This document shows positions 27,001-61,720 of a stretch of 64,000 bases of DNA, one piece after another. The stretch is from Limonium bicolor (taxonomy: Eukaryota > Streptophyta > Magnoliopsida > Caryophyllales > Plumbaginaceae): the NCBI GenBank assembly GCA_023374045.1, contig CM041782.1, positions 186,886,925-186,950,924 on the forward strand, given 5' to 3'. Numbering within the stretch: position 1 is the stretch's first letter; every line of letters starts with the position of its first letter. The notes beneath the pieces are model-generated. The model did not search any database. It was given only the letters and a program-made list of their open reading frames with translations, and was not told the DNA's origin. The position numbers and the translations under genes were made by a program.

Positions 27001-28153
27001 GAAACCCGGGACCGATCTCCGGTCATGCATGCTAAGGAAAAAGGGGGACGGTATCTGAATCAGATCCGCCCTCCACTTAAGGACTTGTCTTCGGACTTGT
27101 AGCCTAGGGCCGGTTGCCGGCTCAGCTACGCTGGATTCCCGTCCAGGGTAGGTGGCATTAAGTTGGTGCGGTGGGATCACCTAAATCCCAGGTTTGGACT
27201 TAGGCTACAACCATTCCCCTCCAGGAACGGTTTGTATTCTGAGAATAAGTTAAGAATAAGATAAGTTACAATCATTCCTTTTTAAAGGATGATTTGTATT
27301 GTTAAGATTAAGATTAAGTTAAGAATAAGATAAGTTACAATCATTCCTTTTTAAAGGATGATTTGTATTGTTAAGATTAAGATTAAGTTAAGATTAAGAT
27401 AAGTTACAATCATTCCTTTTTAAAGGATGATTGTATTGTTAAGATTAAGATTAAGTTAAGATTAGATAAGTTACAATCATTCCTTTTAAAGGATGATTTG
27501 TATAATTAAGATTAAGATAAGCAACATCCACTCCTTATTAAAGGATGTTGTTTCTAAGGTTAAGATAAGACTAAGATAAGGCGAGATAAGGATGGACTAA
27601 GGTTAAGAGGGAACATTACTTAAGGAGTTAAATAACTAACTCTCCAATTAAGGGAACGCATTTAAGTCGTTCATTGTGTGTGAACTTTGATTGTTCATAT
27701 ATGGATTGTTGTTTACAGCATTTACTATATGTTGTGCATCTAATCAACCTCCATGCTATCGACAATTAGTCGTCGTAGCCACGTTAGCTTGGGGGCCATG
27801 AGGGGATCGTACCAGCATTCGTGCTGACCCCCTTTGGGGGCTGTTTTTACTACACAGGTACATCAGGAAGCGGTCGTCGCAAGAGTAAGAAGAAGGAGTA
27901 CAAGTGTTAAGGACTAAGTATGGCCTACGAGTTGTGCATGTACACTCGTGTGGCAATTGAGTTAGTAAATGTATAGGATGTGAGGGGAATGTAAGAAGGA
28001 CATGTTATTGGTTAAGATTGTTGTACTAATGTTCGGTATATTCTGTAGTCAGACCGTGGCAAGGTCCTGGATTGTAAAGAATTCCGCTGTGACATGTATA
28101 TATATATGCTGTTAAGTTGCGAGACCACATCTGGATTGAGTTGGGGTGTTACA
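24014..28153 (+). repeat. 3' LTR of element 3
   Basis: 4140 bp. It matches the 5' LTR except for small indels and the loss of about 400 bp that correspond to roughly 16965-17360 there. The join at about 26733 is GAATTTG|CTAACGAGG; TTG occurs at both deletion ends, suggesting a microhomology-mediated deletion. Confidence 0.93.
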
Positions 28154-28158
28154 GTTGT

Positions 28159-30696
28159 ACTTGTATCCGACGTTCCTCCGGTGTTCACAAATCAAATCCT
28201 ATGATATACATACAATCGAGTGATTAATCTAACTATCATTAACTAAACTCGATTACTCTTACATTTCCTAACTCATACTTACTATACCTTTACAATTCTT
28301 ATACTTACATATGGTTTACTTACTCTTTGTTACTTTTAAAACTTGTTCATACTCTTAATGACCTTTAAACATCCTTAATTAAGTCCTATTTACCTTATAC
28401 TACCATTACTATTCACTTCCTTACCTTAGTACCCATTCAATAAGCTTAGTTTACAAGTTTGTTGTTGGTCCGGGACCTTGTCAAGGTCTTAATCCCGGAC
28501 CAACAGGTGGTCCAACTCTCGGGTCATTTTTGGTGCCTGGTCTGGGTCCTTGTACAGGGTTCAAGTCCCGGACCATCAGTATGTCCAGTCTCGAACAGAA
28601 ATTTCAAGTGGTCCGGGTCTTCTTACTTAAGGTAAGTCCCGGACCAAGACTTAGGCAACTCTCGGTGTGTTTTTGTAGGGTGGTCCGGGTCCTTGTATGG
28701 GACTTAAGTCCCGGACCACCATCTTACTACAACTCTCGGCTATTTTATTCAACTGGTCCGGGACTTAGTCCTAGACTTAAGTCCCGGACCCTGCTATCAG
28801 TTTTACAGATTTTACAGTTTTCTTTATCTGTTACAAACCAAATTTTGCCTAATTAATCCCCCATTGTTCCTACACTGAATCCCACACCTAATTAGCCTCC
28901 TAAACATGTTTAATTCCTTTACTAACCTATTACACCTTTTATACTAATTCACTCTCATATTTTCTAAGTTTCTCATCTCATCACTTACCTTATCTTCCTT
29001 TGGTTGCATTATGCTACAGATTTTAAACTCTCACTTTCCCCATCTATTGCTCCCTCTTATAATGCCATTTCTAGAGCTTACAATACACTAGCTATCTCTC
29101 ATGACCTACCAACTAAACAACTCCAATTAAAATCTGTTACAAGGATATACTTTCACCTAGTTTTCTAGTTTCTTAAGTGTTCTAATCCTAGGTAAATTTT
29201 GCCATAGTCTCCCCTATAATTATACACTCTCACCACTTTGTTTCACTCACATAAATGATCCATACCACCTGTTTATAGCCAATATCAATATACCCAACTC
29301 TCATACACAAATACCACACTAAACAACATTAAATCCCTACACTCAAACATTAATTCCCATCTATGTTTTAACATGTTTTAAAATGTCTTTTAAGGGTTTA
29401 AAAACAGTTTGGTTCTTTCCTACATTATACCTCTACTCATTACCATTGTACACTACACATTTATACCACTAAAATCTGTTACATTACACATTACTAAACT
29501 ACACAAAAGATGAGTGTAATTACCTTGTTTCTTCTTCTAGTTCTTCCTTTTCTCCTTCTTGCTTCTTCCTTCTTCCTTCTATCTCTTTCCACCGGTTTTA
29601 GCAACATAAATCCTCTAACACTACACCCATATATACACACCATTTTAATACACTAACTAACCCTTAATCATTCTTTAAAGCTTAATGCATATTTTAGGGT
29701 TTAGAAATTCCATTACCTTGTAAGGGTATAAGTGAAGCTTGGTATGGCTCAAGAACAATATTCTCACCCTCCAAGAGTGCCAAAATCGGCTAGAGTACAA
29801 AGGGGCAAACAAGGGTTTAGCTTTAAATTTCGTTTTGCCCACAAGGCTAGAAAAACAATGAGGTTTCAAGAATATTTTTACCTCAAGATGACAAGGAGAA
29901 GGAGGTGGTTCTAATGGTAGTCTTGAAGCTCCAAATGCTCCACACCCATGGAGATGAAGATGCTCCTTTACGGATTTTGGAAAGAGGGAAATACTCTCCT
30001 TGATGAGAGGAAGACAATGGTGTAATTTTTATAATTTTTGGAGGAGGTTTAAGGGAGTAACAAGAGGAGAGAAGTGGAGAATGGTGTGAGTTCTCTTATT
30101 TCTCCATTGCTGTCGCCAGGAAGAAGAAGAAAGAATCAGAGAGTGAGGGAGATGGGGGCTGTGTACGTGAGTGAAGAGAATGGGGTAGGAGAGAGAATGT
30201 GAGGTAGAGTAGTAAAGTAGTTTACTTTATTGTTTTTAATTATTTTGTTGTTTTGTAAATAACAGAGGATAAGTGAGTGTGTGAGAGAGAGGGATGGGGG
30301 CCGGCTGGCACACCGCACACACACACACTTTACATTTTTATTTTCAAAAGTGGACACATAAGTTTGAGTTATTTATGTTTCCACCCCACAACTTCCCGTT
30401 TTTGACAGTTTTTACAAATTTCTCGTTTTATTGATTTTATTGGTTCTAAAGTTTCACTAATATTTATTAATGACTATTTAGTTGACCAAAATTTTTACGA
30501 GTCTATTTGACCCGCTTAAAGTCACGTTTTCCCGGTTTCCTTGAAGAACGTGCTTTAAGGTTCGTTAGTGTTTTTGATCCATTTTAAGGATCCGTTTTCT
30601 TCGGGATTTGTTCCCTCATGATTGTTTAGACATAATTAAGCTTCTAAATTACTTATTAGTATAATTAATCACTATTTTTAATTACGGGGTATTTCA
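28159..30696 (-). repeat. 3' LTR of Tekay element 1b, proximal piece
   Basis: Continues the LTR piece 12927-14260 after element 3 and its second GTTGT copy. Net LTR length is about 3.87 kb. On the - strand it starts TGAAATACCCCG at 30696. The palindrome array is at 28464-28792. Confidence 0.92.
28464..28792 (-). repeat. Palindrome array of the element 1b 3' LTR
   Basis: The same five-unit array as 9211-9540. One unit here has TTAATCCCGG instead of TTAAGTCCCGG, a right-arm-specific change. Confidence 0.85.
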
Positions 30697-30710
30697 ATCT
30701 ACCCCCCTTA
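30697..30710 (-). other. 3' polypurine tract, element 1b
   Basis: Minus-strand TAAGGGGGGTAGAT directly before the LTR. Confidence 0.88.
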
Positions 30711-31120: not shown

Positions 31121-31162
31121 AAGGGGTACGCACCGTACCCGTATTTACAGACACTAGACTAT

Positions 31163-31606
31163 CTAGTCTATGAATAACTGTGGGTACTTCGCCTTCATGG
31201 AATCTTCCAACTCCCATGTCGCTTCTTCGACATCATGGTTTGACCATAGGACCTTCACTATTCGGATAGACATGTGGCGAGTGTCTCTGGTCTTCCTATC
31301 AAGGATTCTGACGGGAGTTTCAACGTATCTCATTGTCGGCTCAATGGACAGTCTCTCGGGCTCTAGGACATGAGAAGGATCAGCAATGCACTTCTTGAGT
31401 TGTGACACATGAAATACATCATGGGCACGTCCCACGTCCTCAAGTAGTGCTAACCTGTAGGCTACAGCTCCAACTCTTTCGGTGATAGCATACGGCCCTA
31501 CAAACATTGGGCTCAGCTTGCCCTTCTGGCCAAATCGGAAGACACCCTTCATAGGTGAAACGCGTAAGAACACTTGGTCGCCCACGGCGAACTCAAGGTC
31601 ACGTCA
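31163..31606 (-). pseudogene. Integrase C-terminus with chromodomain, element 1b
   Basis: 140 codons open from 31585: GDQVFLRVSPMKGVFRFGQKG, FVGPYAITERVG (GPY/F module), DVFHVSQLKK, then the chromodomain VKVLWSNHDVEEATWE and a terminal YPQLFID. Compared with the left copy it has Met for Lys before FVGPY. It is separated from the integrase core by the same tandem TGA codons that break the left copy. As part of the integrase it would have bound heterochromatin marks. Confidence 0.88.
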
Positions 31607-32401
31607 TCACACATCCGCATAGGATTTCTGTCTATCCTCGGCTGCCTTCATATTTGCTCGAATCTGCTGAACTTCAGCTTGTACTTGTTCAAGATACTCC
31701 GGTCCTATGATGACCGCTTCGCTTGACTCATCCCAACACAAGGGCGTACGGCACGGTCTACCGTATAGGGCTTGGAAAGGCGACATCTTAATCGAAGCAT
31801 GGTAGCTGTTATTGTACGAAAACTCGATAAGATGAAGCTTATCTAACCAACTCCCCTGAAAGTCTAAGGCACGTGCCCGAAGCATGTCCTCTAGTGTCTG
31901 GATGGTCCTTTCTGTCTGACCGTCGGTCTGAGGATGGAAGGCGGTACTCAACTTCAATTCTATACCCAGCGCTTCCCGTGTAGCTCTCCAGTATCTCGAA
32001 AGAAATCTGGTGTCACGGTCAGATACTATAGTCTTCGGGACTCCGTGGTGTCTGATAATCTCCTTGTCAAATAGCTCAGCTAGCTTCACTACCTTCCAGG
32101 TGTCCTTCATCGGTATGAATCGGGCAACCTTGGTAAGGCGATCGACTACAACCCAGATCATGTTGAGTCCTCCCCTGGCAGGTGGGAGTCCTACAACAAA
32201 ATCCATGGAGATATCGTGGAACTTCCACTCTGGAACTGGCATCGATTGTACCATTGCGCCCGGTCTACGATGTTCAAATTTCACCTTTTGGCATGTCAAG
32301 CATCTCAATACAAACTCCATCACATCTGATTTCATCCCAGACCACCAGAAGTACCTCTTCATGTCTTTGTACATCTTGGAGGCTCCTGGATGAACTGACA
32401 A
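31607..32401 (-). pseudogene. Integrase zinc finger and core, element 1b
   Basis: 264 codons open. The HHCC finger (VHPG, CLTCQKVKFEH) is followed by the D,D,E core: SMDFVVGLPPARGG, TIVSDRDTRFLSRYW, FHPQTDGQTERTIQTLEDML. The segment YNNSYHASIKMSPFQALYGR is the conserved block after the core. It runs through CWDESSEAVIIGPEYL without the frameshift seen in the left arm, ending at the tandem TGA. Upstream it is cut off from the tether (32437-32727, [11 protein letters not shown]) by the shared TGA at 32416-32418. Catalytic residues are intact, but the polyprotein cannot be made. Confidence 0.88.
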
Positions 32402-32436
32402 TGTAGAACTGTGTGACTCTCACAGGATGCGATCCC

Positions 32437-33513
32437 TTAGCTCAGCATTGCTTCGGGGACGCATAGCCTGCCATTCAGCCGAATCAGACCATCTTCATGC
32501 AACTTAAAATCATACTTCTTCTTTTTGAACGTACCATTTTCGATCTTTTGTCTGATTTCGGTTAGGTAAGGGTCGCTCAACTGAGCGTCTCGCACCTCGT
32601 CAACCAAGCTAGAAGAAGCGAGTAGCGAATGGAGCAAGTGTGCTTGACGACTCAGGGCGTCGGCTACGATGTTTGCCTTCCCTTCCTTATACTGTAGGTC
32701 GATGTCGTAGTCTGAAAGAAACTCCATCCACCTTCTCTATCGCAAGTTCAATTCTTTCTGTTTGAATGCATACTGTAAGCTCTCGTGGTAGGAGTAGATG
32801 GTGATGCTTACCCCATAGAGATAGTGTCGCCATATCTTCAAGGCGAAGACAATGGCTCCTAGCTCTAAGTCGTGTGTCGCATAATTCTCCTCATGCTTTT
32901 TCAGCTGGCGGGAGGCATAAGCTACAACCTTGCCATGCTGCATGAGTACACATCCCATTCCCTTGCCTGATGCATCACAATATACTTCAAATCCCTCTGT
33001 GCCCTCTTGAAGAGTAAGGATGGGCGCCGAGGTCAATGAGTCCTTTAGGCTTTGAAATGATAATTCACACTCGTCTGTCCATACAAACGGTGCATCTTTC
33101 TTCATCAGTGTGGTGATGGGCTTAGTGACTTTCGAGAAGTCCTTTACGAATCTCCGGTAGTAACCGGCTAGACCAAGAAAGCTCCTAATGTCGGTAATAG
33201 TCTTGGGTCTAGGCCTTGATCGTACAACTTCAATCTTAGAAGGGTCAACTGAGATACCTGCACTCGAGATGACATGACCGAGGAATGATACCTGATCTAG
33301 CCAGAACTCGCATTTGGAGAACTTCGCATACAGCTGGTTCTCACGCAGTGTCTCACGTACTTTCCTCAAATGAAATTCATGCTCTTCTGCTGATTTTGAG
33401 TATACAAGGATGTCGTCGATGAAGACAACAGCTGAAGTGTCTAACTGCTCACTGAAAAGTCGATTCATGAGATCCATGAATTTTGCTGGTGCATTTGACA
33501 AACCGAATGGCAT
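32437..33513 (-). pseudogene. Reverse transcriptase C-terminal part, RNase H and tether, element 1b
   Basis: Open from 33513 to the shared TAG at 32737-32739, then the tether to 32437. It contains [20 protein letters not shown], catalytic [28 protein letters not shown] (missing from the left copy) and [15 protein letters not shown]. RNase H follows with [18 protein letters not shown] and [15 protein letters not shown]. The tether begins [20 protein letters not shown]. This is the better-preserved RT of the two copies and the best sequence here for placing the element in a Ty3/gypsy tree. Confidence 0.88.
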
Positions 33514-33766
33514 GACGGTGAACTCGTAGTGGCCATATCTGGTACGGAATGCCGTTTTCTCGATGTCTTGCCCTTTGATAGCAATCTGATGATACCCAGA
33601 ACGGAGGTCGATCTTGGAGAAGACTGAGGCTCTTTCAGCTGGTTGAATAGGTCGTCGATGCGTGGCAATGGGTATTTATTCTTGACTGTGACCGCATTCA
33701 ACTCGCGTAGTCGATACAAAGTCGGAGACTACCGTCCTTCTTCTTCACGAAGAGGACCGGTGCTCC
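33514..33766 (-). pseudogene. Reverse transcriptase N-terminal part, element 1b, frameshifted
   Basis: After the TAG (right copy TCACCCTAGGGAGCACC) comes GAPVLFVKKKDG. A one-base deletion shared by both arms precedes [22 protein letters not shown] one-base loss specific to this arm lies in AAGAGCCTCAG (left arm AAGGAGCC), and the shared shift after GYHQ follows. No single frame survives across the segment. Confidence 0.82.
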
Positions 33767-34538
33767 CTAGGGTGATACGCTCGGGCGTATAAACCCTTTG
33801 TCGAGTAGGTCTCGCAACTGTTCTTTCAACTCTGTCATTTCTACGGGTGCCATGCGGTACGGTGCCTTAGCAATGGGACCAGTACCTGGCAAAAGATCAA
33901 TCTCAAATTCTATCGCTCTCTGAGGTGGCATGCCGGGTAGCTCCTTGGGGAATACATCGGGAAATTCAGACATTACCGGTACATCATCACTGAATTCTGG
34001 ATCTCTCTCCAGGTCTTGTATATAACACAAATATACTTCATGGCCCTTTCTGAGCTCCCTGTACATAGCCATAGCGGAGATGATTGTGGTCGAAGGCTCT
34101 CTCGGTCTCTGGCGGTAAGATACCGTAACCCCAGAAGGACTCTTTAGCAGCAATCGATGCTCGGCGCAGAGGATTCTACCCTTGTGCCACTCCAACCAAT
34201 TCATCCCGATTATCAAGTCGAATCCTAACCCATTGAACTCGATGAAGGAGATGGGAAATGCTTCGCCTTTAATTTCAATCTTGGCTGCTTGGTAGTATTT
34301 GGTACACTGTACTCGCTCCTTCGATGGGAGAGTAACCATGAAGTTGGTAGCTCATCTGCATCTAGCTTCAACCTCTTCACAAAAGATGGTGATACGAAGG
34401 TGTGAGAGGCGCCAGAGTCGAATAACACTGTGGCTTCAATGCCGTTCACTGGGAAGGTTCCCGTTAAGATGGTGCCGCTTTTGCCGGCTTGTGCTTCGGT
34501 GAGGATACTCAGGTTACCTTCGGTACCGAGTCCACAAC
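33767..34538 (-). pseudogene. Aspartic protease, element 1b
   Basis: Active site VLFDSGASHTFVSPSFVKRL lies in the first frame. A one-base loss near 34348 (CTACC-AACTTC; the left copy has CTACCGAAC) shifts to the second frame, which holds DLIIGMNWLEWHKG and the RT start LPGTGPIAKAPYRM. It follows a candidate splice acceptor at 34539-34540 (minus ATTCAATAG|GTTG) in the same phase as the gag donor. The frameshift is unique to this arm, so the protease frame was still open when the arms separated. Confidence 0.85.
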
Positions 34539-34604
34539 CTATTGAATTCACAAGTGGTTAAGTAATGATGGTGGACACAAGTGGAATTTAAATCAACACT
34601 GCTC

Positions 34605-34610
34605 TTTATT
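34605..34610 (-). promoter_or_regulatory. AATAAA upstream of protease, element 1b
   Basis: Minus-strand AATAAAGAGC, counterpart of 3480-3485. It lies after the AlkB stop and before the protease acceptor once the Tat insertion is removed. Confidence 0.4.
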
Positions 34611-34659
34611 GATAAACCAACCATCATACATACTGTGTCTCTAATACACGTTACTAATA

Positions 34660-35985
34660 TGTGAGCCTCGATTTTAAACCCTATCCTATGTCGATTAAGG
34701 CTGATTAAGGTCTAACCGGGTTTTAGGTCCACTTATAACCTAAGATTTGAAAAATTGAAAAATACAAAATCCCGCCACCATCTGTGGGTGTCCGTGGTCA
34801 CGGACAACCCGTCCGTGGTCACGGACAACCCGTCCGTGGTCCCAGGCAATGAGTCCGAGGTCACGGACAACCCACGGACAGTGGGTTTTAGATGGTTCCC
34901 GAGGGTGTTTTGAGCTCAAATTTTATGGGTGTGTAGCCTGAAAGATTTTAAACACGTTAGTAACTGAAAGAACTCAATTTGACATCAAAATTAATATGAA
35001 ACTTAGCAAACAAGTAACAAGGCAGTAGCTAATACAATCAGCAATACAGAAACAAAAAAGAGTTAGTTTAAGCCTAAATTTTGAGGCAAGACTGATAAGG
35101 TCGTGGATAGTTAGGAAAGTGGGATTTCTACCTATTTTACCTTCGGATTCACAACGATTCTTCACACCGGGATTCGAAGAGTGCTCCGTTTGTGGCAGAC
35201 CCGAAAGATTTTCGAACCAAGCTTCTGGTGGTTGGTTGTTCTTGCTGTTCTTCACGTTTTGGTGGTGTTTTGTGGGGTTTTGATGATTATTGGTGCTTTG
35301 GGATTGGAAAACGTGTTTAGATGGTGATTTCGGGGGATTTTCGGTATGATTCGGGTGGCTGGGTGTTGGAAAACGTGAGAGAGAGAGAGAGAGGAGGATG
35401 TGCTTTCTGTCTTCCTAGGGTTCTTGATCATATGAGATTCTGCTTTTATCAAAAAAAACCTATCCCTTATATAGACTTTCTTAAAGATAAAGAAAATCTA
35501 GTAAAGTAAGATTTTTTTGATATTTTAATTAAGTGAATTCCCAAAGGAATTTTGCGGTGAAATTTTAACCACGTGTCAAGGATGACAATTATGAATTTTC
35601 TGAAGTGGAATCAGATTGTTTTAAATGTTGGAATATTTTTAAATTGAATTTATCGCCAGATTCAGTCAGAAATTGCTAGAAAATTATTGGAAATTCGAAA
35701 AATCAAAATTCCAACGCTATTATGCTTAGAATGTCATCCTCTACCATGGGTTAAAGTATCAAAGCATTTCAAGCTGATTTGGGCATCTTTCGGAGGAGAG
35801 AGAAAGCCTTAGGAGGTATCAGGAGCCTTAAAAATTACAAAAACGCCCCTGACAATGACGAAACTGCTCCTCATGCCCTGGGATGCGCCGATCGAGCCGG
35901 AATCCCTCATTACTTTATTAAATTCCCTTCACAACACCAAAACCTTGTAGACCCTAACCAGGGGGTCAAAATTTTGGGTATAACA
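34660..35985 (-). repeat. 3' LTR of the Tat-like element
   Basis: 1326 bp, TGTTATACCC...GGCTCACA on the - strand. It has one more 21 bp CCGTGGTCACGGACAACCC-type unit than the 5' LTR. TATA box (minus TATATAAG) at 35466-35473; palindromic block at 34776-34887. Confidence 0.93.
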
Positions 35986-36001
35986 GATTGCCCCCCGTCA
36001 A
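35986..36001 (-). other. Polypurine tract of the Tat-like element
   Basis: Minus-strand TTGACGGGGGGCAATC next to the LTR start. Two upstream look-alikes (CTGGGGGCAAT) are at about 37445-37455 and 37513-37523. Confidence 0.85.
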
Positions 36002-36107
36002 CTGGACTTTGTAATGGATGTGAAAAGTCTGGTTGATGCTTGAGTGATGCCCTACAATTTTGGATTCCACAAAATCCTCCATGTTGTCCGAAACCACGTT
36101 GACTACG

Positions 36108-36377
36108 TCCAGCTATTCGGAGGCGCTGACTGCCTATGCAACAAAACGCTGTCGTGCTATTCTGAGGCGCTGACTACCTATAAGTAAAAATGTGTCAAGC
36201 TATTCTAAGGCACTGACTACCTAGGTGACAAAAATGAAATAATGTCAAGGTTCTAAGGCGTCGACTACCTATAATACATGAAATGATGAGATGTCAAGCG
36301 ATTCTTAGGCGTTTACTACCTGTAATTAATGAAATGATGCAATGTCAAGCGATTCTAAGTCGTTGACTACCTAGGAT
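36108..36377 (-). repeat. Tandem array C (right copy)
   Basis: Counterpart of 1735-2004. One unit here is shortened (near 36245-36260). Confidence 0.85.
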
Positions 36378-36700
36378 GTGAAGACTGGATGGTATGCAAA
36401 TGCAAGAATGCCGAAATGCTAATGATGCTAATGATGGTGATGCTGATGATGTTGATGATGCTCTGATGCTTCTGGGGACCGAAACTCGTGCCAATGCTCC
36501 TGGCTGGACCCAATGTGGACTTATCGCCATCGCCCCCCAAGCCGGTGTACAGGGATAACTCCTGGTAAAAACCCTGGGGACTTATTGCCTTCGCCCACCA
36601 TTCGTTGATCCCAAAAATAAGTTGACATCGCAAATGGAGGATTTATTGTCATCACCTCGCCAACTTTTTGTCGACAGGTCTTGTGACGCGCCTGGATAAT

Positions 36701-37026
36701 GCAACTAGGTCTTATGACGAGCCTATATGAATGAGATGAATGCAATTTGTTTGATGAGATTGGGTAAGCTAAAGGGTAACATTAGGTCTTACTACGAGCC
36801 TAAGGGAATGCAACTACGTCTTATGACGAGCCTAAAGGACGGTTCTAGGTCTTATGACGAGCCTAAGGATGGACCTAGGTCTTATGACGAGCCTAAAGGT
36901 TGGATCTAGGTCTTATGACGAGCCTAAAGGTGGGACCGAGGTCTTTTGATGAGCCTAAAGGTTGGATCGAGGTCTTATGATGAGCCTAAAGGAATGCAAC
37001 TAGGTCTTATGACGAGCCTAAAGGTA
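36701..37026 (-). repeat. Tandem array B (right copy)
   Basis: Counterpart of 1084-1410, with the GGTCTTATGACGAGCCTAAA core on the + strand. Confidence 0.85.
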
Positions 37027-37110
37027 GTTCTAAGTGAAAGTGAGTAAAATGTATGATGGGTCTAAATGGATGTAGAAGGATTAGGGCTTATGTCAAACCT
37101 GGAGATGGTG

Positions 37111-37368
37111 AGGCTCAAGACAGGCCTGTGGATGCTTGAATGTGAAGGAAGGACTTAGGACGGGCCTGAAGAAATTTTGTGTGGAGGTAGGGCTTAGGAC
37201 GGGCCTATGGATGCTTGAATGTGAAGGAAGGGCTTAGGACGGGCCTGGAGAAATTTTGTGTGGAGGTAGGGCTTAGGACGGGCCTGAGGATGTTGAAATG
37301 TGGAGGTAGGGCTTAGGACGGGCCTGAGGATGTTGAAATGTGGAGGTAGGGCTTAGGACGGGCCTGTG
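37111..37368 (-). repeat. Tandem array A (right copy)
   Basis: Counterpart of 742-1000, with the GTAGGGCTTAGGACGGGCCT core on the + strand. Bases 37369-39057 between this array and the PF20167-like ORF hold no convincing gene. Confidence 0.85.
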
Positions 37369-39057
37369 TGATGTATGATGGCGGTGGTGATGTTTGAGCT
37401 TTAGGTTCCAATTGGCGTTGTCACAACAATTGTTTGAATCAACAATTGCCCCCAGCATTTTCCCTTAAGACAATCTGAGCTAGAGTTCATGGCGATCAAT
37501 CGGAACGATCGATTGCCCCCAGTATTTTCTCTGATTAAACGTGCAAACAAGTCTCATCCTCACAGGGTCAAGGCTTATGTTTTGATGTGGTTCTTCCTAA
37601 CCTACGCTCGATGTGTTTGGTGCTTGCACTCGTTTCTCACTTACGGTTACAACTTCTCAACCATTGAATTTGACACTTGTTAGATTTACGCGTTCAACCT
37701 GTTACTTTCACATGATTGGATACACAGCTACTAAGTCGGAAGTCTTTTGAGCTTATAACGTGGCTATGGGGTGTAATGAAATACAATGGGATGATGGGGG
37801 AATGTTTAGGATACGTGGAGCTATAAGGGTGACCAAAGCTGCAACTTGCACCTTCTCTCGGACTTGCCTTCTTTGTCCTGAAGTCGTTTGGCTACTTCGT
37901 GATGACTTTGTTTATGAGCTTGGGGTTTAGGACTTTTGAGTTATTCCTAGCACCTTCTCTCTTTTTCCGATTTTGGATTTCTTTGAGGCTTTTCAGGTTT
38001 TCCTTTCTTTGAATCCTTTTCCTTCGGGGTTCTTGTGTTTCCCGGTTTTGAACTATGAGAGCTGTTCCTAGTGTTAGCTCATTGGATCCTGTGTCACTTT
38101 GGGACCATTTGCGGATCGTTTCGTTACGCTGGTAGCAATTTTGCTTCTTTGGACTTGTGAAGTTGCTGTTCGGAAGTCAGGCTCCTTGCCTCCTTTGGTC
38201 ACCGGGTCGGTTATTCACCATTGGCTGGCTTATTTGTGGAGCTTGTAGTGTTGTAAAAGAGGTTATATATGAAAAGCTCAGCGGGGGTGCCTAGGGTGTA
38301 ATGTCAGGGGTCACAAGCTTTTGGACTGTGTGGTGCTATACCTAGGTGCTTCGTCATCCCTAATAGTTGTGTACCTGTTCTTTGTTACTTTTCATAGGTT
38401 TAAGCGTAAATTTACAAATTATCTCCTTCGGTCAGAGTCATGCCGTTTACCTTACCTTTGAATGTGACCTCTCTGGAGTCGTGTAAAAATGACACGCTCT
38501 TTCGCTCTTGGTTTTTCCGCTCAAAGCGCTCTCGTGAAATGTACACTCAGAGACTTGTTTGCACGTTTAAACAAAAGAAATAAACATTATCGTTCCTTAA
38601 CTCAGATTGCCCCCAGTATTGTTGTGGGGTTCACTTAACAAACCTTTTGGATACCCAAGTTATTTGTGGAGGATTGCTGTACGTGTAATGGTGATGAGAT
38701 ATTCCTGTGAAGAGGTGAAGGGTGATTTTGTAACAACAAATTTTTGGCTTTATGTATTTAGTGAAATGTTGAGAAAGCGGATTGGTGAGACACATATGAG
38801 GGTTATGATGAGGGTGGGTGGAATGATGAGATGACTTATCTTTGACCTTGTTTTGACAACAAAGATGCATACCTAACCTGTAATAACAGACAATGATTTT
38901 CTACATGCAAGAGATTTCTCGAATAACACTAAACGAAACATGCAGCAAATGTCAAAGCACAAAAACATCGAAAGAGAGCTCATGTCAGGCAATACAGCTA
39001 AAAGAAAAGACAACATCCTAATCATAAAATACATAGAGAAAATATGAAGTCCTAAAA

Positions 39058-40298
39058 CTACGGCTGTGGAGGAGGTGGAAGTGGGAAGGCCGAGTACATA
39101 TGAGTCATGAAATCATCCATACGGCCGTCCATGCGTATCTGCCTACGCTCCATACGACCCTGAGTAATGTGAAGAGATCTGATATCCCTCTGCAAGCTCT
39201 CAAGCGTAGCCGGCTGCGGAGGTGTAGGCGGTAGGGTGTAGTAGGAGGAGAGTGGTGTAGGGTACTCGGTGCCCATGTAGCTCGACCCTTCACCCTGGTA
39301 GGTGTATCCTCCTGACGGGTCCTCATGGTGTGGGATGTCCTCGGGCTCCGGTGCCTGCTGCCTCTGCCTAGGCCGGACTGGCCTCTAAGAAAAGACTCTG
39401 GCCTGCTGTGGGAAGGCCCAACCCTGATCGGCTGAGTAGCCAAGGGACCTCAGCATCTCCATGGTGTAGGTAGGATATAGAGGCTCCCAATCGTTATCCC
39501 CCATCGGGACCTGTGCGCACTCGCATAGCCACTGAATGAAACTCGGGTAGACTAAAGCATGGCGTCCAACCCAAGTTGTCGTCATCAGATGGTCTCTCAT
39601 CAAGACCGACAGTGGGATCGAACCCTCCTCGAATCGGGCGGGTGCTGAATGTATCTCATGAGGAAGCAATAGCGGGCAGAGACATCATTGCGTGCTTTTG
39701 GCAGCACGTTATGAGACAGAACCTCCAGGAGTACCCTGTCTAAAGCGGTGGGTAGAGCAGAGGGAAGGATCACCTGCTTCCTCGGCTGATCCCTCGTAGA
39801 AGAGCGAACACGCTCTGACAAGGTGGAGTGTTGTAGATAAAACTGGCGCGCCTCACTCTCTGACGCTGCTATCGTCTCGAACCCTCTATGCTCAGGGTTG
39901 CTAGGATGTAGGCCGTAAAAGTGCACAAAATCCTCTAAGCCCACAGTGATGGGCTGACCACGCACATAGGATACAATGGCCCCGGTCTCATCCTGGTCCA
40001 AGTTAGCATAGAACTTGACTAACTCCCTGATGTAACTCCTCGGGCAGGTAAGCAACCCCACCCAGTGAAGGTGCTGAAGCAGGTGATCAAGATCGAAAGT
40101 GGTGATTACCTCATCACTGAAGAGACGCTCCTGCTGGATGGAAACATCTTGATTCTCATAAAACCAGCGCTCCTGCCGAGCTCCTCTGAAGCGGGTATGG
40201 TCAAAGGTTGGGGATGTCTCTCTGCAACGCCTACGACGTGGCTGAGAGCCTGATGCCCCAGCCTCAGCTACCCTATGGGAACTCCTGCGACCTTCCAT
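39058..40298 (-). pseudogene. PF20167-like 'putative plant transposon protein' of the Tat-like element
   Basis: The first 233 codons start MEGRRSSHRVAEAG with a basic RRRRCR patch, then FRGARQERWFYENQ, LVKFYANLDQDETGAIVSYVRGQPI and DFVHFYGL. That run (short beta-rich block, FYANL, VRGK/Q-x-I) resembles the Pfam family called putative plant transposon protein, common in plant retroelement ORFs. Near 39640 the frame shifts to EEGSIPLSVLMRDHLM..WVGRHALVYPSFIQWLCE. Near 39380 it shifts again to a proline-rich tail with a helical LESLQRDIRSLHITQGRMER segment ending FPLPPPPQP. It is probably a Gag-like structural protein. The family assignment is from memory of the motif pattern. Confidence 0.6.
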
Positions 40299-41400
40299 GA
40301 TATGCCTAAGGATTCAACAAAAATAAAAGACAATAATTCTATAAGAATTTCGGCAGAGTTTCCCCTAAATTTTCATGAATCCCATGCTTTCAAATGCACT
40401 CCACACCATATAATCAGTCCTAGGATCTACCACTCATGCAAATTTTAAACACTCCATGAGCTAGAAACGCGAGGAACCTCATTTCGCACTTAAAACGCAC
40501 TAAACTAAAACGGGCGACTCTTGGCAGTTACAAGCAGTTTTAACCTTCCAAACGAACTTTTCACATTTTAAAATGTCCTTTTAAAGCTAGTTGGCCATTT
40601 AAAACATAAAAAATCAAACTTCAAAAATTTGACCCGAGAACCACCATTGTCGTCTTCTTCCTAGCTCCAAATTTTGTTATTCTTCGTTTCTTCACCAAAA
40701 TGGACAAATGAGTAGTCAAAATGTAGATAAAATTTACCCAAATGCAATGGTGGAAGAAGATTTCTGATTGGAAGTTGAGAGCTACACAAATCCGGTCCTC
40801 GAAGGTCCGCCTCGGACTGGACTTCGGACGCGAGTTTCCGCGATCGCAAGTGCTCGAAATGGGGAGATCTTGGTGTGGAAATGCTTAAAATCGAAAGAGG
40901 GATGTTTTGTGAGCAAAATGGTGGTGGAATGGAGTGATTTGGTCAAGAAATGAGTGAGATATGGAGGAGAGAAGCCAAGGGTTTGAGAATGGAGTTTGCT
41001 GAAACAAAAATGGTGAATTTAGGGAGAAATCCCGATTTGAATCGGGTGAATAAAGCCACTAACCGAAACGGCGCCGTTTGGCGGTCAAACGGACGCGTTC
41101 GAGTCAACATCCGGGGCCATGGACGGCGCGTCCGGGGTCACAGACGCCCTTTTTTTTCCTTTTTCCGAAAATTAATTGATTAATTTAAAAGAAACCAAGC
41201 AAAACAAAATTCTCTTTATTCATCTCGAAATTAAAGAAGAACAATTTAAAGGGGTCTTAAGAAAACAGAAAATGCCTAGGATTAAATGTCTAAAATGCAA
41301 GCTTCCTTTTGACAACTCTTGGCTCGGCTACCCCCTCCTTTTTTCGTTTGAATGCATCTACCTCCTCCTTTCGACCGTATAGCTATTTCTGATAACTTGC

Positions 41401-42408
41401 TCAGAGCTCCAAGTCTTCAGGTGCCAGGGGCTGCACCACTTGAACTTCCTCTTCGAGTCGATCCATCATGATCGCACGAAGAGCCTCATGATCGTATGCT
41501 TTCCTTGGCGCTTCATATAACGAACCATTGGGTTGGCTCTGGGCTCGCCCAATCTGACGGCTTGAACGCCACGGGTGGATGACATGAAAGTTCTCAAAAC
41601 CGGGTAACGAGATCCCTCCGTAATAGCCTCCACACATTCGAACTCCTTCAATTTTCCAAGCTGAGACCGTCCATCGGACTTGATGTCCCTGCCGTATGGA
41701 GTTCAAAAAGGCCGGCCACCCGTCAACCGGCTCCTTGGGGGTACGTCTTCTAGGAAGATGCTGAATCGTGAACATTTGGTTGTACTCGGGAATCAGCTTG
41801 AGCCGCTCGAGAAGCCAAACTTGCAGAAGGTGAATGCTTCCTTCGAAGAAGTAAGGGGTATCCTTTGATTTGGGCCATGAATCCAGGCTCTGAATAATTT
41901 GTGCGACTATCAATGGTCCCAAGGCGAAACCAGCTTGAACCTGCGGAAGCAAAGGGAAAACTTTTCGGTGTATGGCCATGTACGGGGTTCTGAAGAGGTA
42001 GACTGCTAGCAACGCAAGATCAAGAAAATTCCTCTTGTGCTCCAAGGAGATCTCAGAGGTAATGAAGTTTGAAAGAGTTTCCACTGGCAATCCCTCGGGC
42101 CCTACCATTCCTAGCAACTGGGTCGGACTTAGCCCAAGTAAATGGGAATGGGCCTCGACCGGTGAGGGTGTCAAGTTTGGTACTACTGGGCTAGCTAGGG
42201 TATTGGCCCCTAGAAGTGCGTCAAATTCCTCAGGTAGTAAAGTTAGCTCGTTATCTCAAAACTTGAAAAGCTGTTCGACCGGATCCCAATGGTTAATAGC
42301 TGCTCTCAGGAAATCTTCATGCAATCGTGTCTGGATAGATATGCTAGCGTGTGGAGGATAGACAACTTGTTGACCTTCTTTGACCAATTGAACACATCCT
42401 TCATAGTT
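41401..42408 (-). pseudogene. DUF7745-like Gag-type protein of the Tat-like element
   Basis: 257 codons are open from 42174. The frame extends upstream through an in-frame TGA (42256-42258, after EQLFKF) to about 42408, adding LHEDFLRAAINHWDPVEQ and DNELTLLPEEFDALLG. Downstream: LALLAVYLFRTPYMAIH, PLIVAQIIQSLDSW and FFEGSIHLLQVWLLERL. The pattern (WDP, LxPxxEE, ALxxxxLFP, ILAExxxSL, cxxLLxxWLxxH) matches the plant DUF7745 family found in Ogre/Tat-type elements and many plant gag-like proteins. Its position just after the PBS leader is that expected for gag or an upstream ORF. The TGA makes this copy defective. Confidence 0.6.
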
Positions 42409-43137
42409 CTGTCACAGGACTTGATGAATTTGAAGCAGTGGGCCATGGACTCATTCTTCTGTTTTTATCAAGAAAAGAAAATACATACATGGTATCAATC
42501 AGCACTCAACTTTGCTTATGGGCCACAAACAACTGGGACTTCGAACTGGGTTGGGCCAACTGTGGAATGATTCCCTATCCGTTATAAGTCTAGTCATGGA
42601 TCAATCACAAGAGCAAACAAGGTTCCACACAAATTCAAAATGTCCTCACCCAACGACCTTGGTTAATGGGTATGGATCAATCCGGAGAGGTGCTTGGGGC
42701 GCTAGCCCAGGTCACCACAAAGGAATAGGGCTTGCACGCTATTCTCTTTGGGCTTCCCCACTTTTTTCACATCACTTGAAGATGTGCGTCTACGGTCGGG
42801 TCTTTGACTAACCAAACAATGGGCTAGGTAAGGGTACTGCCAGGAAAATGCTTGGGGCTAAAGCCCAGGTATTAAGGGGGTGTGGTTAGACGACACCCTC
42901 CTCTTTTCCCCCACTTATTCACATCACCTAAAAGGTGTGAGTCCCTGACAGGGGACCCTCAAACGGGTCCCAGGTGAAATTGGTTTGCGTGGACCCTCGC
43001 TCTCGTATGATGCAGGGTACAAAATTTCAAATTGCGCACAAAAGTAAATAAACAATGTAATAAAAAGCCATAAATAAACAATTATTCAAGTGAAGCCCTC
43101 TTTCTTAAAATTAAAAAAGTTAAAATTAGGAAGTTTA

Positions 43138-43155
43138 TCCCCAGCAGAGTCGCCA
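43138..43155 (-). other. Primer binding site of the Tat-like element
   Basis: Minus-strand TGGCGACTCTGCTGGGGA begins 3 bases after the LTR end. It differs from the iMet type used by the other elements here and is of the kind reported for Tat/Ogre elements (tRNA-Arg, from memory). Confidence 0.7.
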
Positions 43156-43158
43156 GTC

Positions 43159-44466
43159 TGCGAGCCTCGATTTTAAACCCTATCCTATGTCGATTAAGGC
43201 TGATTAAGGTCTAACCGGGTTTTAGGTCCACTTATAACCTAAGATTTGAAAAATTGAAAAATACAAAATCCCGCCACCGTCCGTGGGTGTCCGTGGTCAC
43301 GGACAACCCGTCCGTGGTCCCGGACAATGAGTCCGAGGTCACGGACAACCCACAGACAGTGGGTTTTCGATGGTTCCCGAGGGTGTTTTGAGCTCAAATT
43401 TTATGGGTGTGTAGCCTGAAAGATTTTAAACACGTTAGTAACTGAAAGAACTCAATTTGACATCAAAATTAATACGAAACTTAGCAAACAAGTAACAAGG
43501 CAGTAGCTAAAACAATCAGCAATACAGAAACAAAAAAGAGTTAGTTTAAGCCCAAATTTTGAGGCAAGACTGATAAGGTCGTGGAGAGTTAGGAAAGTGG
43601 GATTTTTACCTGTTTTACCTTCGGATTCACAACGATTCTTCACACCGGGATTCGAAGAGTGCTCCGTTTGTGGCAGACCCGAAAGATTTTCGAACCGAGC
43701 TTCTAGTGGTTGGTTGTTCTTGATGTTCTTCACATTTTGGTGGTGTTTTATGGGGTTTTGATGATTATTGGTTCTTTGGGGATTGAAAAACGTGTTTAGA
43801 TGGTGATTTCGAGGGATTTTCGGTATGATTTGGGTGACCGGGTGTTGGAAAACGTGAGAGAGAGAGAGGAGGTTGTGCTTTCTGTCTTCCTAGGGTTCTT
43901 GAGCATATGAGATTCTGCTTTTATCAAAAAAAACCTATCACTTATATAGACTTTCTTAAAGATAAAGAAAATCTAGTAAAAGTAAGATTTTTTGATATTT
44001 TAATTAAGTGACTTCCCAAAGGAATTTTGCTGTGAAATTTTAACCACGTGTCAAGGATTACAATTATTAATTTTCTGAAGTGGAATCGGATTTTTTTAAA
44101 TGTTGGAATATTTTTAAATTGAATTTCTCGTCAGATTCAGTCAGAAAATTGCTAGAAAATTATTGGAAATTCGAAAAATCAAAATTCCAACGCCATTATG
44201 CTTAGAATGTCATCCTCTACCATGGGTTAAAATATCAAAGCATTTCAAGCTGATTTGGGCATCTTTCGGAGGAGAGAGAAAGCCTATTGGAGGTCTCAGG
44301 AGCCTTAAAAATTACAAAAACGCCCCTGACAATGACGAAACTGTTCCTCATGCCCTGGGATGCGCCGATCGAGCAGGAATCCCTCATTACTCGATTAAAT
44401 GCCCTTCACAACACCAAAACCTTGTAGACCCTAACAAGGGGGGGGGTCAAAATTTTGGGTATAACA
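43159..44466 (-). repeat. 5' LTR of the Tat-like element
   Basis: 1308 bp. TATA box (minus TATATAAG) at 43941-43948. Palindromic block at 43273-43362 has one unit less than the 3' LTR. Differences from the 3' LTR are scattered and few. Confidence 0.93.
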
Positions 44467-44491
44467 TAATACATTACATGATGCTATGAAT

Positions 44492-45229
44492 TTAATAGTT
44501 CCTAGAGGTAAGGTTCAGGCGTCCTGGTTTCATGTGTGTGGCATTGATTATTTCCGGTGGTGCCGTATTCAGCTTGATCTTGTTGATCCCGTGATACAGC
44601 ATCCTGGATTTTCCACCCATGATTAGGACATCTCTGATCTCAATACCAATTTCTGTGCGAAGTCCACACACTTCTGCTCGCTATACAAAAATACGGCGTC
44701 ATCACCAATGGACCAAGACACTACGGACACTCCTTGTTCAAGGGATTCCGCTGTCTCGTCCTTGTCTTGGTGTAACCCAAGTCGTCCTTCTTTCTCATAG
44801 AAGTTGACGATACAAGGTCTGCTTCAAGTGCGGGGATCGGATCATATTCGCATTGTTGTGCAAGTGTTACTGCTTGTGTGACAAGTGTATGAAACTCCGA
44901 AGGTAATGTCAGTGGCGTTGCTCCGTCTTGTGTTCGTGTCTCTTGGTATGTCTTGGTATAAGGATTCCAGTCCTTTCCCAAGCACATCATTTTCAGCTTC
45001 ATCTTCGCTCCACTGGGGAATCTGGGTGTATAAAATCCTCTTTGACCCGTTCCTAGTTCGTTGCATCGTCGGATGATTGAAATTTGTGCTTCGGGTGTCA
45101 GGTATCCCCTTAATAAAATCATACCTGGGCGGATGACCTGACACTGTTCACTGGGGTAGTGGTGTGTGGTGATGTCGGTCTCTTCTTGATTCAGTTTCGA
45201 AGGTATTGGATAGCAGATACTAAGGCTTC
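44492..45229 (-). pseudogene. AlkB-like 2-oxoglutarate/Fe(II) dioxygenase captured by the Tekay element
   Basis: On the - strand, the same as gag and pol. A possible own ATG is at 45246-45248. The open frame to about 44813 reads VIRPGMILLRGYL, then GQRGFYTPRF..GAKMKLKMMCLGKDWNPYT, the signature start of plant ALKBH1-type proteins. After a one-base loss (near 44813) comes CIVNFYEKEGRLGLHQDKDE, with N-x-Y and the iron ligands H-x-D (His 44770-44772, Asp 44764-44766), then VSVVSWSIGDDAVFLYS. After a second one-base loss (near 44632) comes DVLIMGGKSRMLYHGI (distal His 44591-44593) and PGRLNLTSRNY with R-x5-R (Arg 44519-44521 and 44501-44503), then TAA at 44492-44494. All catalytic positions survive. 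AlkB enzymes remove alkyl groups from DNA or RNA bases; the substrate here is unknown. Calling it a host capture is inference. Confidence 0.88.
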
Positions 45230-45382
45230 CTATGGTTAGAAATTTCATCTACGTAAGTACTAATTTCAACTACTTCATTTCATGCTCAATACAACTTCAA
45301 TTTATTCACCCATGCATTCACTCAAACAGTTACTTTAATACTTAGACATGCTTCTCAAGGATTCAAGGTTTAGATTAATTAC
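45230..45382 (-). other. Candidate intron between gag and the AlkB exon
   Basis: Minus-strand donor CCCAG|GTAATTAATC at 45382, acceptor ACCATAG|GAAGCC ending at 45230 (153 bp). Joining keeps the frame: gag ...SGP-G|SLSICYPIP of AlkB. A second acceptor 19 bp upstream (TTACGTAG|ATG, ending at 45249) would instead expose the AlkB ATG directly. The region is AT-rich, as plant introns are. Confidence 0.5.
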
Positions 45383-46748
45383 CTGGGCCGGACTTAGAAC
45401 CGGACCTGTCTCGGTCTATGATATGCAAGGCAGGCTGCCTCTGAGGTGCGCCCCTCTGAGGACCTCGGGATCCCTATCCCTGTGGTGCCTGCTAGGTCGG
45501 TGCATCACCAGATGCAACCTCCTTGCCTTCCCTTTGTTTGTAGCCTTGGAAGTTTCCTCTCGGTTTAGCATTCTCGGGGCATACATTGGCTCGGTGTCCG
45601 GGCTTCTGACAATTGTAGCACCGGATTTCTCTCCCTTGGCAATCCTTGCCGGGATGGTCTTGGTTGCACTTTCGGCACACATAAACGCGGCCGTCAGAGA
45701 AGTTTTTGGTGAAACCGGAGCCAGAACCTAAGGTTTAGAGAATTAGCACATTTGTGCGGGAATACAAGGTATGATACTTATGCAAATACGGATTTAGATT
45801 CGAAGTTTACCCTTAGGTGGGTGTGATCTCAGTGGCTTCGCAGCCACCGGCGCAGAAGAACCTAGTTGAAGTAGCTCGACTGGTTTGCCCTGCTCAGCAT
45901 GGGCACTGCTCTCACTTGGGAGGTTCTTTGGGGTTTGATTGAAGAACTTTCCCTTCTTCTTTTTCCAGCTTTTCCCTTGGTTCTGCTCCTCATAACTGGT
46001 GTTCTTACTATTAGCTTTGCGCTTCAGCGTGGTTTCTTCATCCCGAAGTTGGCAAGTGATCTCAACGCAGGAAGCCGCGTGATAACACTCCTGAAGGGAG
46101 GTAAACCGTGTGTAGCCCATACCGTACCGAAGGCGATGGCTCAGACCGCCATAGAAGCGATCGACCAACACCTGGTCGGTGTATCCTTGGTCGGGTAGAA
46201 GATGGAGGATAGAAGTGAAGGTTTGTAGTATTCATCGACAGACATCTTCTCTGTCATTTTCAAGGCATCCAGCTCTAGCCTTTTCTTGGTTTTCACATGC
46301 TCCGGATAGTATTTGGATCGGAGGAGTGATGCAAAGGATTCCCAATCGAAAGTAGGGTCATTGACATGCTATGCTTGACTAGCTTCCACCAATCCATGGC
46401 TGCATCTTTTAGATAGTAGGCCGCTACTCTAACTTGAACTTTAGCAGGAGCTTCGAGGGTTTGAAAGCCGTCTCCATCTCAGAGATGTAGGCTTTTAACT
46501 TAGCCGGATCACTCTCGCCCCAAAAGCAGGAGGGCGGAGTTCCGCTACAGCTTTTACCCAGTTGGCTTCTCTGGGTGGAGGGGGAGGGATTGGCCCGCTT
46601 GTGTTTGCTGATTTTGCTGCATTGCGGTAATTTCTTGTGGTAGCATTTGCGCTACCGTGGCGGCGACGATCTCTGCTATCGTCTGTGCACCAGGTCCTTC
46701 TGAGGCTTCGCCTCTCCCTCTCCCTCGGCCTCGGCCTCGTCCTGACAT
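45383..46748 (-). pseudogene. Gag polyprotein with two zinc knuckles, element 1b
   Basis: Starts MSGRGRGRGRGRGEASEG at 46746-46748, a typical Tekay Gag N-terminus, about 210 bp after the PBS. Frameshifts near 46570, 46500, 46455 and 46215 break it. Recognisable capsid segments are SDPAKLKAYISEMETAF, RVAAYYLKDAAMDWW, FASLLRSKYYPEHVK, MSVDEYY and VDRFYGGLSHRLRYG. Two CCHC-type knuckles follow the intron at 45728-45810: CRKCNQDHPGKDC (CX2CX3HX4C) and CYNCQKPGHRANVC (CX2CX4HX4C). Two TAG codons (about 45500 and 45481) replace Gln downstream of the knuckles. The product would have formed the particle and bound RNA. Confidence 0.85.
45728..45810 (-). other. Candidate 83 bp intron inside gag
   Basis: Minus-strand CCTAAGG|GTAAACTTCG ... 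CTAAACCTTAG|GTTCTGG. Removing it joins HPPK-G to SGSGF in frame, where the unspliced frame ends at KLRI-stop. The size and T-rich 3' end suit a small plant intron. Confidence 0.55.
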
Positions 46749-46950: not shown

Positions 46951-46970
46951 ATAACTACGCTCTGATACCA
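46951..46970 (-). other. Primer binding site of element 1b with overlapping stem
   Basis: Minus-strand TGGTATCAGAGC (46959-46970) is complementary to initiator tRNA-Met and lies 5 bases after the LTR. CAGAGCGTA pairs with TATGCTCTG downstream with one G-U pair, as in elements 3 and 4. Confidence 0.85.
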
Positions 46971-46975
46971 CTTTT

Positions 46976-47318
46976 TGTAACACCCCTACCGCTAATCCTA
47001 TGCTTACCGTCCAATCATCCCTTTTATTCTATCAGTTCGCAGCGGAAGACTACTACTACTACGGCGGGTGGTACAACGCCGCTAACCGCCCGTACGGCTA
47101 GCTAGGCTTACCTTACTTACAGTCACGGTCTGATGATCATAGTATACCGAGCTACTACGTTACTTACCAATTACCGAATATCAAATACTTACATTAATGG
47201 ATTACTGAGTGCCAAAGTATATTCAATTACATCATTCCCAAGTTTACCAAAAATAATGAGTCTCTACCATCTACTCATCTGTACCAATTCACCATCCCAA
47301 CAATATCAAAAAGGTGTA
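46976..47318 (-). repeat. 5' LTR of element 1b, proximal piece
   Basis: Minus-strand end GGGGTGTTACA at 46976 borders the PBS. Matches 12927-13262. Interrupted by element 4, with target site GTGTA at 47314-47318. Confidence 0.92.
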
Positions 47319-51946: not shown

Positions 51947-51960
51947 ATCTTCCCCCCTTA
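51947..51960 (-). other. 3' polypurine tract, element 4
   Basis: Minus-strand TAAGGGGGGAAGAT before the LTR, one base different from elements 1 and 3 (GAAG for GTAG). Confidence 0.87.
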
Positions 51961-53345: not shown

Positions 53346-53362
53346 CTACCCCCCTTAAAAGG
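53346..53362 (-). other. Second polypurine tract, element 4
   Basis: Minus-strand TTTTAAGGGGGGTAGCG after GTGGGCGTAATCCC, about 1.4 kb upstream of the 3' LTR. It is in the same context as 22848-22864 of element 3. Confidence 0.7.
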
Positions 53363-56185: not shown

Positions 56186-56206
56186 GCACTTGCCCTGGGC
56201 AAGTGC
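56186..56206 (-). other. Leader hairpin of element 4
   Basis: GCACTTGCCC and GGGCAAGTGC arms (stem 10 bp, one-base loop on paper, realistically 8 bp with a small loop). It lies about 875 bp after the PBS and has the same stem as 19726-19745. Confidence 0.6.
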
Positions 56207-57050: not shown

Positions 57051-57081
57051 TCCATCAGAGCGATACTTCACTCTGATACTA
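57051..57081 (-). other. Primer binding site of element 4 with overlapping stem
   Basis: Minus-strand TAGTATCAGAGT (57070-57081) differs at two positions from the iMet site of elements 1 and 3. CAGAGTGA can pair with TCGCTCTG downstream through one G-U pair. Confidence 0.75.
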
Positions 57082-57086
57082 CTTTT

Positions 57087-61715: not shown

Positions 61716-61720
61716 GTGTA

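Follow-up and report, generated by a model that had tools for sequence, protein, structure and literature searches.

An ALKBH1-type AlkB domain as a predicted alternative 3' exon of gag in a chromovirus family of Limonium bicolor

In one LTR retrotransposon copy of Limonium bicolor, an AlkB domain lies between gag and protease. Does this domain belong to the element and, if it does, how would it be expressed? The copy is contained in a stretch of 64,000 nucleotides, here called the window (C7:186886925-186950924), of the 2.92 Gb host assembly that was searched. The initial annotation of the window proposed that an ancestor of the element had captured a demethylase. The reading favored here, to which we assign a probability of roughly 0.8, is that a chromovirus captured an ALKBH1-type gene, which has since served as an alternative 3' exon of gag. 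Either Gag-AlkB or Gag-Pro-Pol would then be made, and demethylation would take place in the particle.

The AlkB element in the window

The AlkB domain is on the strand that also carries gag and pol, after the zinc knuckle, as first annotated, and the Pfam matches agree with this (Table 1). Three frame pieces match successive parts of PF13532 (2OG-FeII_Oxy_2), namely profile positions 1-89 (E 2.6e-7), 98-153 (2.4e-11) and 154-194 (5.2e-9), and the NFY, HQD, YHG and R-x5-R motifs named in the initial annotation are all readable in them. The three pieces also fit its proposal that two single-base losses caused the breaks. Upstream of AlkB there is a CCHC zinc knuckle, together with pieces that match Retrotrans_gag weakly. 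Downstream are a protease, RT, RNase H, integrase and a chromodomain match (34557..31163); this part is broken in places, and its rve and Chromo scores are under their cut-offs.

The start of gag was set by eye at MSGRG. The window copy lacks gag intron 1 and reads CTTCAG/GAGTGT at the junction 46091/46090 (slashes mark exon boundaries). Gag exon 3 ends in CCCAG/GTAATT, a shared splice donor whose GT is at 45382-45381; the stretch originally singled out for its AlkB domain ends at 45382, on this GT. The AlkB acceptor is CCATAG/GAAGCC (AG at 45231-45230), and the protease acceptor is AATAG/GTTGTG (AG at 34540-34539).

Table 1. Features of the AlkB element and of the LTR element nested in it, in window coordinates.
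Feature	Position	Strand	Remarks
5' LTR, outer part	61716..64000	-	split from the inner part by N1; runs off the window
5' LTR, inner part	46978..47318	-	self-alignment to 10842-11180 and 12929-13266
Primer binding site TGGTATCAGAGC	46959..46970	-	read in the sequence
gag exons 1+2 (capsid part)	45811..46748	-	Retrotrans_gag pieces; frame broken in places
gag intron 2 (AAGG/GTAA...TTAG/)	45728..45810	-	phase 1; same place in subfamily I
gag exon 3, CCHC zinc knuckle	45383..45727	-	zf-CCHC, E 2.3e-6
AlkB (ALKBH1-type) exon	44492..45229	-	PF13532, three frames; own stop TAA
Nested LTR element B	34660..44466	-	1.3 kb LTR pair; sits between AlkB stop and protease
Protease-RT-RNase H-integrase-chromodomain	31163..34538	-	RVP_2, RVT_1, RT_RNaseH, Integrase_H2C2, rve, Chromo
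3' LTR, aligned part	28148..29447	-	continues at 12929-14260 beyond N2

The domain order PR-RT-RNase H-INT in the window pieces is that of Ty3/gypsy chromoviruses. The chromodomain match (PF00385) covers residues 98-142 of the last pol piece, at the C-terminus of the integrase, with an E value of 2.5e-4 and 21.3 bits against a curated cut-off of 25.1 bits. The tentative label Tekay (Del) rests on this match, on the domain order and on an apparent resemblance of the chromodomain motif to that of Tekay elements. TGGTATCAGAGC is presumably a primer binding site of the initiator-Met tRNA type, and a Met-type site would be a Tekay trait. Of 2,609 sites aligned between the LTRs of the window copy (three pieces, gaps left out), 64 are mismatched, or 2.5%. 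With a substitution rate of 1.3e-8 per site per year, this copy would be about one million years old.

The 9.8 kb that separate AlkB from protease in the window are a nested LTR element, B, which the initial annotation did not set apart from the AlkB element. B is flanked by a 5-bp target duplication, TATTA, at 44467-44471 and 34655-34659. In five sibling copies without B (L108-L112), gag exon 3, AlkB and protease are contiguous and in the same order. B was considered as the carrier of AlkB and rejected, since AlkB lies outside its target duplication and is present in the five siblings that lack it. An ORF of B resembles the plant mobile domain (PF10536, E 1e-7, just under the cut-off), and pol was not seen among the longer frames of B. 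The LTRs of B are 3.4% diverged versus 2.5% in its host element, which is the wrong order for a later insertion.

Two further elements, N1 (47319-61715) and N2 (14260-28153), have large LTRs of 4.1-4.6 kb, with LTR mismatches of 1.5% and 0.5-0.6%. Coding frames are not recognizable by eye in either, and the primer site of N2 is identical to that of the AlkB element. N1 and N2 are probably non-autonomous relatives inserted into the LTRs of the AlkB element. The window also contains an inverted duplication, about 97-99% identical, of positions 1-11328 against 12782-14260 plus 28148-38110; its center is near 12.05 kb, and N2 interrupts it.

Copies in the host genome and selection on AlkB

Copies with AlkB at the same place between gag and protease are found across the host genome. 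In a PF13532 search, all of the best 150 of 38,325 candidates cover profile positions 1-194; their open AlkB frames, as printed, are 211-263 aa long, and 149 are free of internal stops, the exception being L007 with one. When the N-terminal AlkB piece of the window was the query, the best 150 of 47,129 candidates were 74-100% identical to it. Candidates were scored best first, which biases both sets of 150, and selecting copies by AlkB score inflates their apparent intactness. Twenty copies were fetched over 9 kb; L010 and L003 are a single locus. When the other 19 were aligned to L003 from gag through AlkB and protease to RT, 18 matched it at 81-96%, with one or two aligned pieces each; for L017, whose gag was taken from open frames, the values are 72-74%. 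An LTR search within the 9-kb loci found none.

The copies are assigned to three subfamilies: I comprises the L003-like copies, II comprises L017, L001 and L008, and III comprises the window copy and its siblings L108-L112. With at most three mismatches, 6,316 places (3,136 + 3,180) match the unspliced subfamily I gag donor, and a reversed control gave 0. The AlkB-element association is old, and the family comprises thousands of copies in the 2.9 Gb genome. A single chance insertion, for which AlkB should be present in this one copy only, is ruled out by full-length AlkB frames between gag and protease in the others. The many full-length copies with AlkB at the same place instead bear out the suggestion that an ALKBH1-type gene was captured and became a lasting component of an LTR family. 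The capture by an ancestor that the initial annotation envisaged is upheld, but not the restriction of the enzyme to that ancestor, as many copies are intact. Four AlkB copies of equal score, spaced about 10.1 kb apart at C1:497439466-497470353, are likely a tandem array of the element.

Comparisons of AlkB between subfamilies (Nei-Gojobori, 242 codons) give dN/dS values of 0.126 for I-II (L003-L017), 0.148 for I-III (L003-L110) and 0.100 for II-III (L017-L110), at dS values of 1.2-2.1, where synonymous sites are near saturation. For two further I-III pairs the values are 0.140 and 0.152, and within subfamily III three pairs have 0.185-0.240. Within subfamily I, the mean dS is 0.140 and the mean dN is 0.019 (153 pairs of 18 copies, with L009 and L017 left out). 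The protease has a dN/dS of 0.164 between I and II over 138 codons; in gag and the RT part, synonymous sites are saturated in this comparison. The check across copies that the initial annotation had suggested thus yields 0.10-0.15 between subfamilies, and on these codon comparisons AlkB is under purifying selection in all three. Such low values indicate that the enzyme was long kept working on the element. AlkB might still have been carried along by a successful element without being of use to it, as the many broken copies (including that of the window) and the existence of AlkB-skipped copies would allow, but constraint as strict as that on the protease, measured at near-saturated synonymous sites, makes this very improbable.

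The metal and 2OG motifs (HxD...H and R-x5-R) are kept in all 25 copies checked, a sample biased by having been found through PF13532. Among the five subfamily III siblings, four have a 252-aa open AlkB frame and three match the strict motif strings fully. L108 retains the H, D, distal H and R-x5-R by eye with different neighboring residues, and the frame of L112 is shorter. Gag exons 1, 2 and 3 are open in 13, 12 and 15 of 22 subfamily I copies, respectively. Gag exons are less often intact than AlkB, whose intactness is inflated by AlkB-based sampling.

One gag donor and two acceptors

In L003, the zinc-knuckle exon ends in CCAG/GTACC, in phase 1. The AlkB exon starts after ...TTAAAG and the protease exon after ...GAATTAG, and both fit phase 1. 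The donor could be anchored in 19 of the 20 fetched copies (not in L017); it reads CCAG/GTACC in 17, CCAT/GT in one (L018) and is deleted in one (L020). The AG of the AlkB acceptor is retained in all 19 anchored copies, and that of the protease acceptor in 19 of the 20 copies, being lost in L020. The donor and both acceptors are present in all three subfamily II copies. Of the five subfamily III siblings, four match the donor, all match the protease acceptor, and three match the AlkB acceptor by string. The intron sequence of subfamily II and of the window copy differs from that of subfamily I, but the sites are kept. The donor and the two acceptors are therefore conserved, in phase 1, in three subfamilies.

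Given one donor and two acceptors, both in frame, the element could make Gag-AlkB or Gag-Pol. The zinc-knuckle exon has a single donor at its end, in phase 1. Splicing from this donor to the AlkB acceptor would produce Gag-AlkB, ending at the AlkB stop, and splicing from it to the protease acceptor would skip AlkB and produce Gag-Pro-Pol. The position of AlkB between Gag and protease is thus as initially annotated, but the domain is better described as an alternative splice exon of gag than as a mere intervening domain. Further upstream, gag intron 2 is common to the window copy and subfamily I. Gag intron 1 is at one place in subfamilies I and II and is absent from L024 and from the window copy; members of two subfamilies have lost it exactly.

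Reverse-transcribed spliced RNA should leave exact junctions in the genome, and the splice evidence consists of such genomic fossils. In subfamily I, the gag/AlkB junction occurs at 12 places (3 exact) and the gag/protease junction at 14 (4 exact); in subfamily II, the corresponding numbers are 11 (4 exact) and 2 (1 exact). Places that are not exact have one to three mismatches. Reversed-pattern controls gave 0 in every junction search, and a shift of four bases, applied as a control to the gag/AlkB junction only, also gave 0 places. Spliced copies of subfamily I are few, 26 versus 6,316 unspliced donors.

Six of these 26 junction copies were read (L102-L107). L105, a gag/protease copy, is base-exactly without introns 1 and 2 and the whole stretch from the donor to the protease acceptor. 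In L104, a gag/AlkB copy, intron 1 and the last intron are missing exactly, and intron 2 is missing with an extra CAG left behind. This points to a tandem TTAG-CAG acceptor whose upstream AG was used for L104 and whose downstream AG was used for L103 and L105. L103 has the gag/AlkB junction, lacks intron 2 and keeps intron 1. In L102, L106 and L107 only the last intron is missing; introns 1 and 2 are retained. Junction copies lie 9-11 kb apart at C2:386.60, C2:353.44, C1:98.43 and C7:92.18 Mb. Because some share variants or lie in tandem, the junction copies are not all independent events. The variant TTCGAGACC is common to four of the 14 gag/protease (AlkB-skipped) copies of subfamily I; a retrocopy without AlkB may itself have given rise to a few further copies, perhaps with help in trans.

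On their sequences, the junction copies are best read as retrocopies of alternatively spliced RNA. Plant LTR elements undergo many deletions, and chance deletion or recombination could join exons as well, but the junctions are base-exact at GT/AG, involve two acceptors in two subfamilies, are accompanied by the joint loss of several introns in L104 and L105, and disappear when the gag/AlkB pattern is shifted; an origin other than splicing is hardly credible.

A different question is whether AlkB is made as a free protein from an ORF of its own, with the gag/AlkB junction as an occasional by-product. This is the arrangement of an orchid element whose AlkB is in a separate ORF2, as described in parts of PMC9289625. 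In subfamily III an ATG is found a few codons before the AlkB exon, and in L003 of subfamily I a Met is at residue 34 of the AlkB frame, just before the domain; free AlkB is possible in these two subfamilies. In all three subfamily II copies read, however, the AlkB frame contains no Met ahead of the domain, so an AUG start inside that frame cannot give the whole domain. As the AlkB acceptor and its phase are also conserved in three subfamilies, and the gag/AlkB junction is present in two, production mainly as a free protein is unlikely, and the alternative gag exon is the preferred reading.

Origin, possible role and known systems

The nearest solved structure to the element AlkB is a rice 2OG-Fe oxygenase, 5xeg (residues 34-249 of 250, E 1.8e-70). 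ALKBH5 is not represented among the 21 PDB sequences with E<=0.001, which comprise the rice 2OG-Fe oxygenase along with entries for ALKBH1 and for AlkB of the E. coli type. Named plant relatives include ALKBH1C/D-like proteins, and identity to named plant proteins is 41-52% among the 120 matches listed. By PDB matches and named plant relatives, the element AlkB is closest to ALKBH1 rather than ALKBH5, which confirms the type first assigned. It shares by eye an FDIC-type segment before the domain with rice OsALKBH1 (5xeg/5xoi) and ALKBH1C/D, but is without the long N-terminal part of host ALKBH1 proteins. According to sections of PMC8118384, 5XEG is rice ALKBH1, a DNA 6mA demethylase that is active on single-stranded DNA and may also act on RNA.

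In a quick tree with 53 of the 120 proteins listed, one clade (SH-aLRT 98) unites the element rows with five database proteins. In a more careful tree (34 rows, 29 listed proteins), the three subfamilies group with support of 94/86, two ENA proteins join them at 98/90 and three more database proteins join with weaker support, 86/83. Twenty land-plant host proteins are on the opposite side of a branch supported at 99/96. The element clade is therefore outside the 20 sampled land-plant host proteins in the best tree, in which nesting was not found. The comparison with host genes envisaged in the initial annotation thus separates the elements in the best tree. The AU test does not reject placing the elements with monocots (p-AU 0.167), nor placing them with angiosperms but not the fern (0.317). 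Judged from these sequences, the capture is old or the domain fast evolving. The database proteins P0001-P0004 and P0080 (ENA, Logan proteins) are 60-71% identical to the element AlkB, and P0002 reads GPFDICYP after an apparent acceptor; they probably represent the same kind of element in other plants. Viral and bacterial contigs have only distant AlkB, at 3 and 70 loci, with a best identity of 45%.

The Gag part of a Gag-AlkB fusion would carry AlkB into virus-like particles, beside packaged RNA and nascent cDNA. There it could remove N-methyl groups, such as m6A or m1A on RNA and 6mA on single-stranded cDNA, and so protect the element from methylation-based restraint by the host or from methyl damage that blocks RT. 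A motive for an element-borne demethylase is provided by m6A on the RNA of plant LTR elements, which leads to its sequestration in stress granules, and by ALKBH9B, which frees ONSEN RNA (as covered in parts of the review PMC12786077). That the element packages a demethylase as a Gag fusion, in a dose set by acceptor choice, and cleans RNA, primer tRNA or cDNA in the particle seems to us evenly poised between right and wrong. This splice-choice design predicts that the Gag-AlkB fusion is inside particles. The chief rival substrates would be cDNA and primer tRNA.

It is rather unlikely that the enzyme acts mainly on something other than RNA or cDNA of the element, for instance on transcripts of the host or on m1A58 of the primer tRNA (initiator tRNA-Met), a target to which a primer site presumably of the initiator-Met type would point. 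Parts of a review (PMC13191261) describe demethylation of m1A57 of a tRNA by ALKBH1 during RSV infection, and the setting of the HIV-1 plus-strand strong stop by m1A58 of the primer tRNA. The same source reports that loss of m1A58 causes plus-strand run-on and lower HIV-1 infectivity, so a benefit to the element is not obvious.

Gypsy elements of the orchid Phalaenopsis carry a paALKBH5-like domain (Gypsy_Pa_2799; Alvarado-Marchena et al. 2022, PMC9289625). In the portions of that paper drawn on here, paALKBH5-like has m6A demethylase and RNA-binding activity in vitro, and a screen found the domain in two Phalaenopsis genomes and in no other genome screened. Both the orchid and the present families are abundant plant Ty3/gypsy LTR elements with a PF13532 AlkB whose metal and 2OG residues are kept. 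By its ALKBH1-type domain, its chromodomain and its predicted splicing to gag, the present element is nevertheless not of the orchid type. Its AlkB lies between gag and protease and is joined to Gag by predicted splicing, and its primer site, which we take to be Met-type, contrasts with the Arg-tRNA site of the orchid element. The latter is a 25.5 kb member of the Tat/Ogre lineage with a dual RNase H, an Arg-tRNA primer site, gag-pol in one ORF and an ALKBH5-type AlkB in the separate ORF2 (same portions of PMC9289625).

The initial annotation knew of no described retrotransposon family with this arrangement. In the literature searched, that still holds for the arrangement, but not for AlkB in retroelements in general, given the orchid Gypsy. 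In the open literature, with subscription papers and preprints outside its scope, the orchid elements are the sole primary report found of an LTR element with AlkB, and AlkB is absent from the main text of the REXdb paper (PMC6317226).

In Ogre elements, partial splicing takes place between gag-pro and RT (parts of PMC6317226 and PMC12786077), and in Ogre as in the present element, partial intron removal decides which polyprotein is made. In those parts a competing enzyme exon is not described for Ogre, whereas the present intron contains one, with two acceptors for one donor. The short GAG of EVADE and BARE is likewise a Gag product set by alternative splicing, but both are Copia elements, and the EVADE splice removes the protease to give a short Gag with no added domain (parts of PMC12786077). 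The junction copies of the present family imply that the alternative splicing of a retroelement can be traced in the genome sequence alone.

In plant RNA viruses, AlkB sits within the replicase; unlike that of the present element, it is not an ALKBH1-type domain fused to Gag. These viruses share with the element that a mobile, RNA-based entity has its own AlkB (parts of PMC9289625). If the reading given here is true, AlkB genes of different subfamilies were captured twice independently, by the separate lineages of the present and of the orchid elements, and methylation of element nucleic acid would be a general host restraint in plants. Because two plant retrotransposon lineages appear to have taken different AlkB dioxygenases, plants and their transposons seem to contend repeatedly over base methylation of element RNA or cDNA. 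An AlkB in a retroelement is itself known in kind; what is new here is AlkB as an alternative 3' exon of gag.
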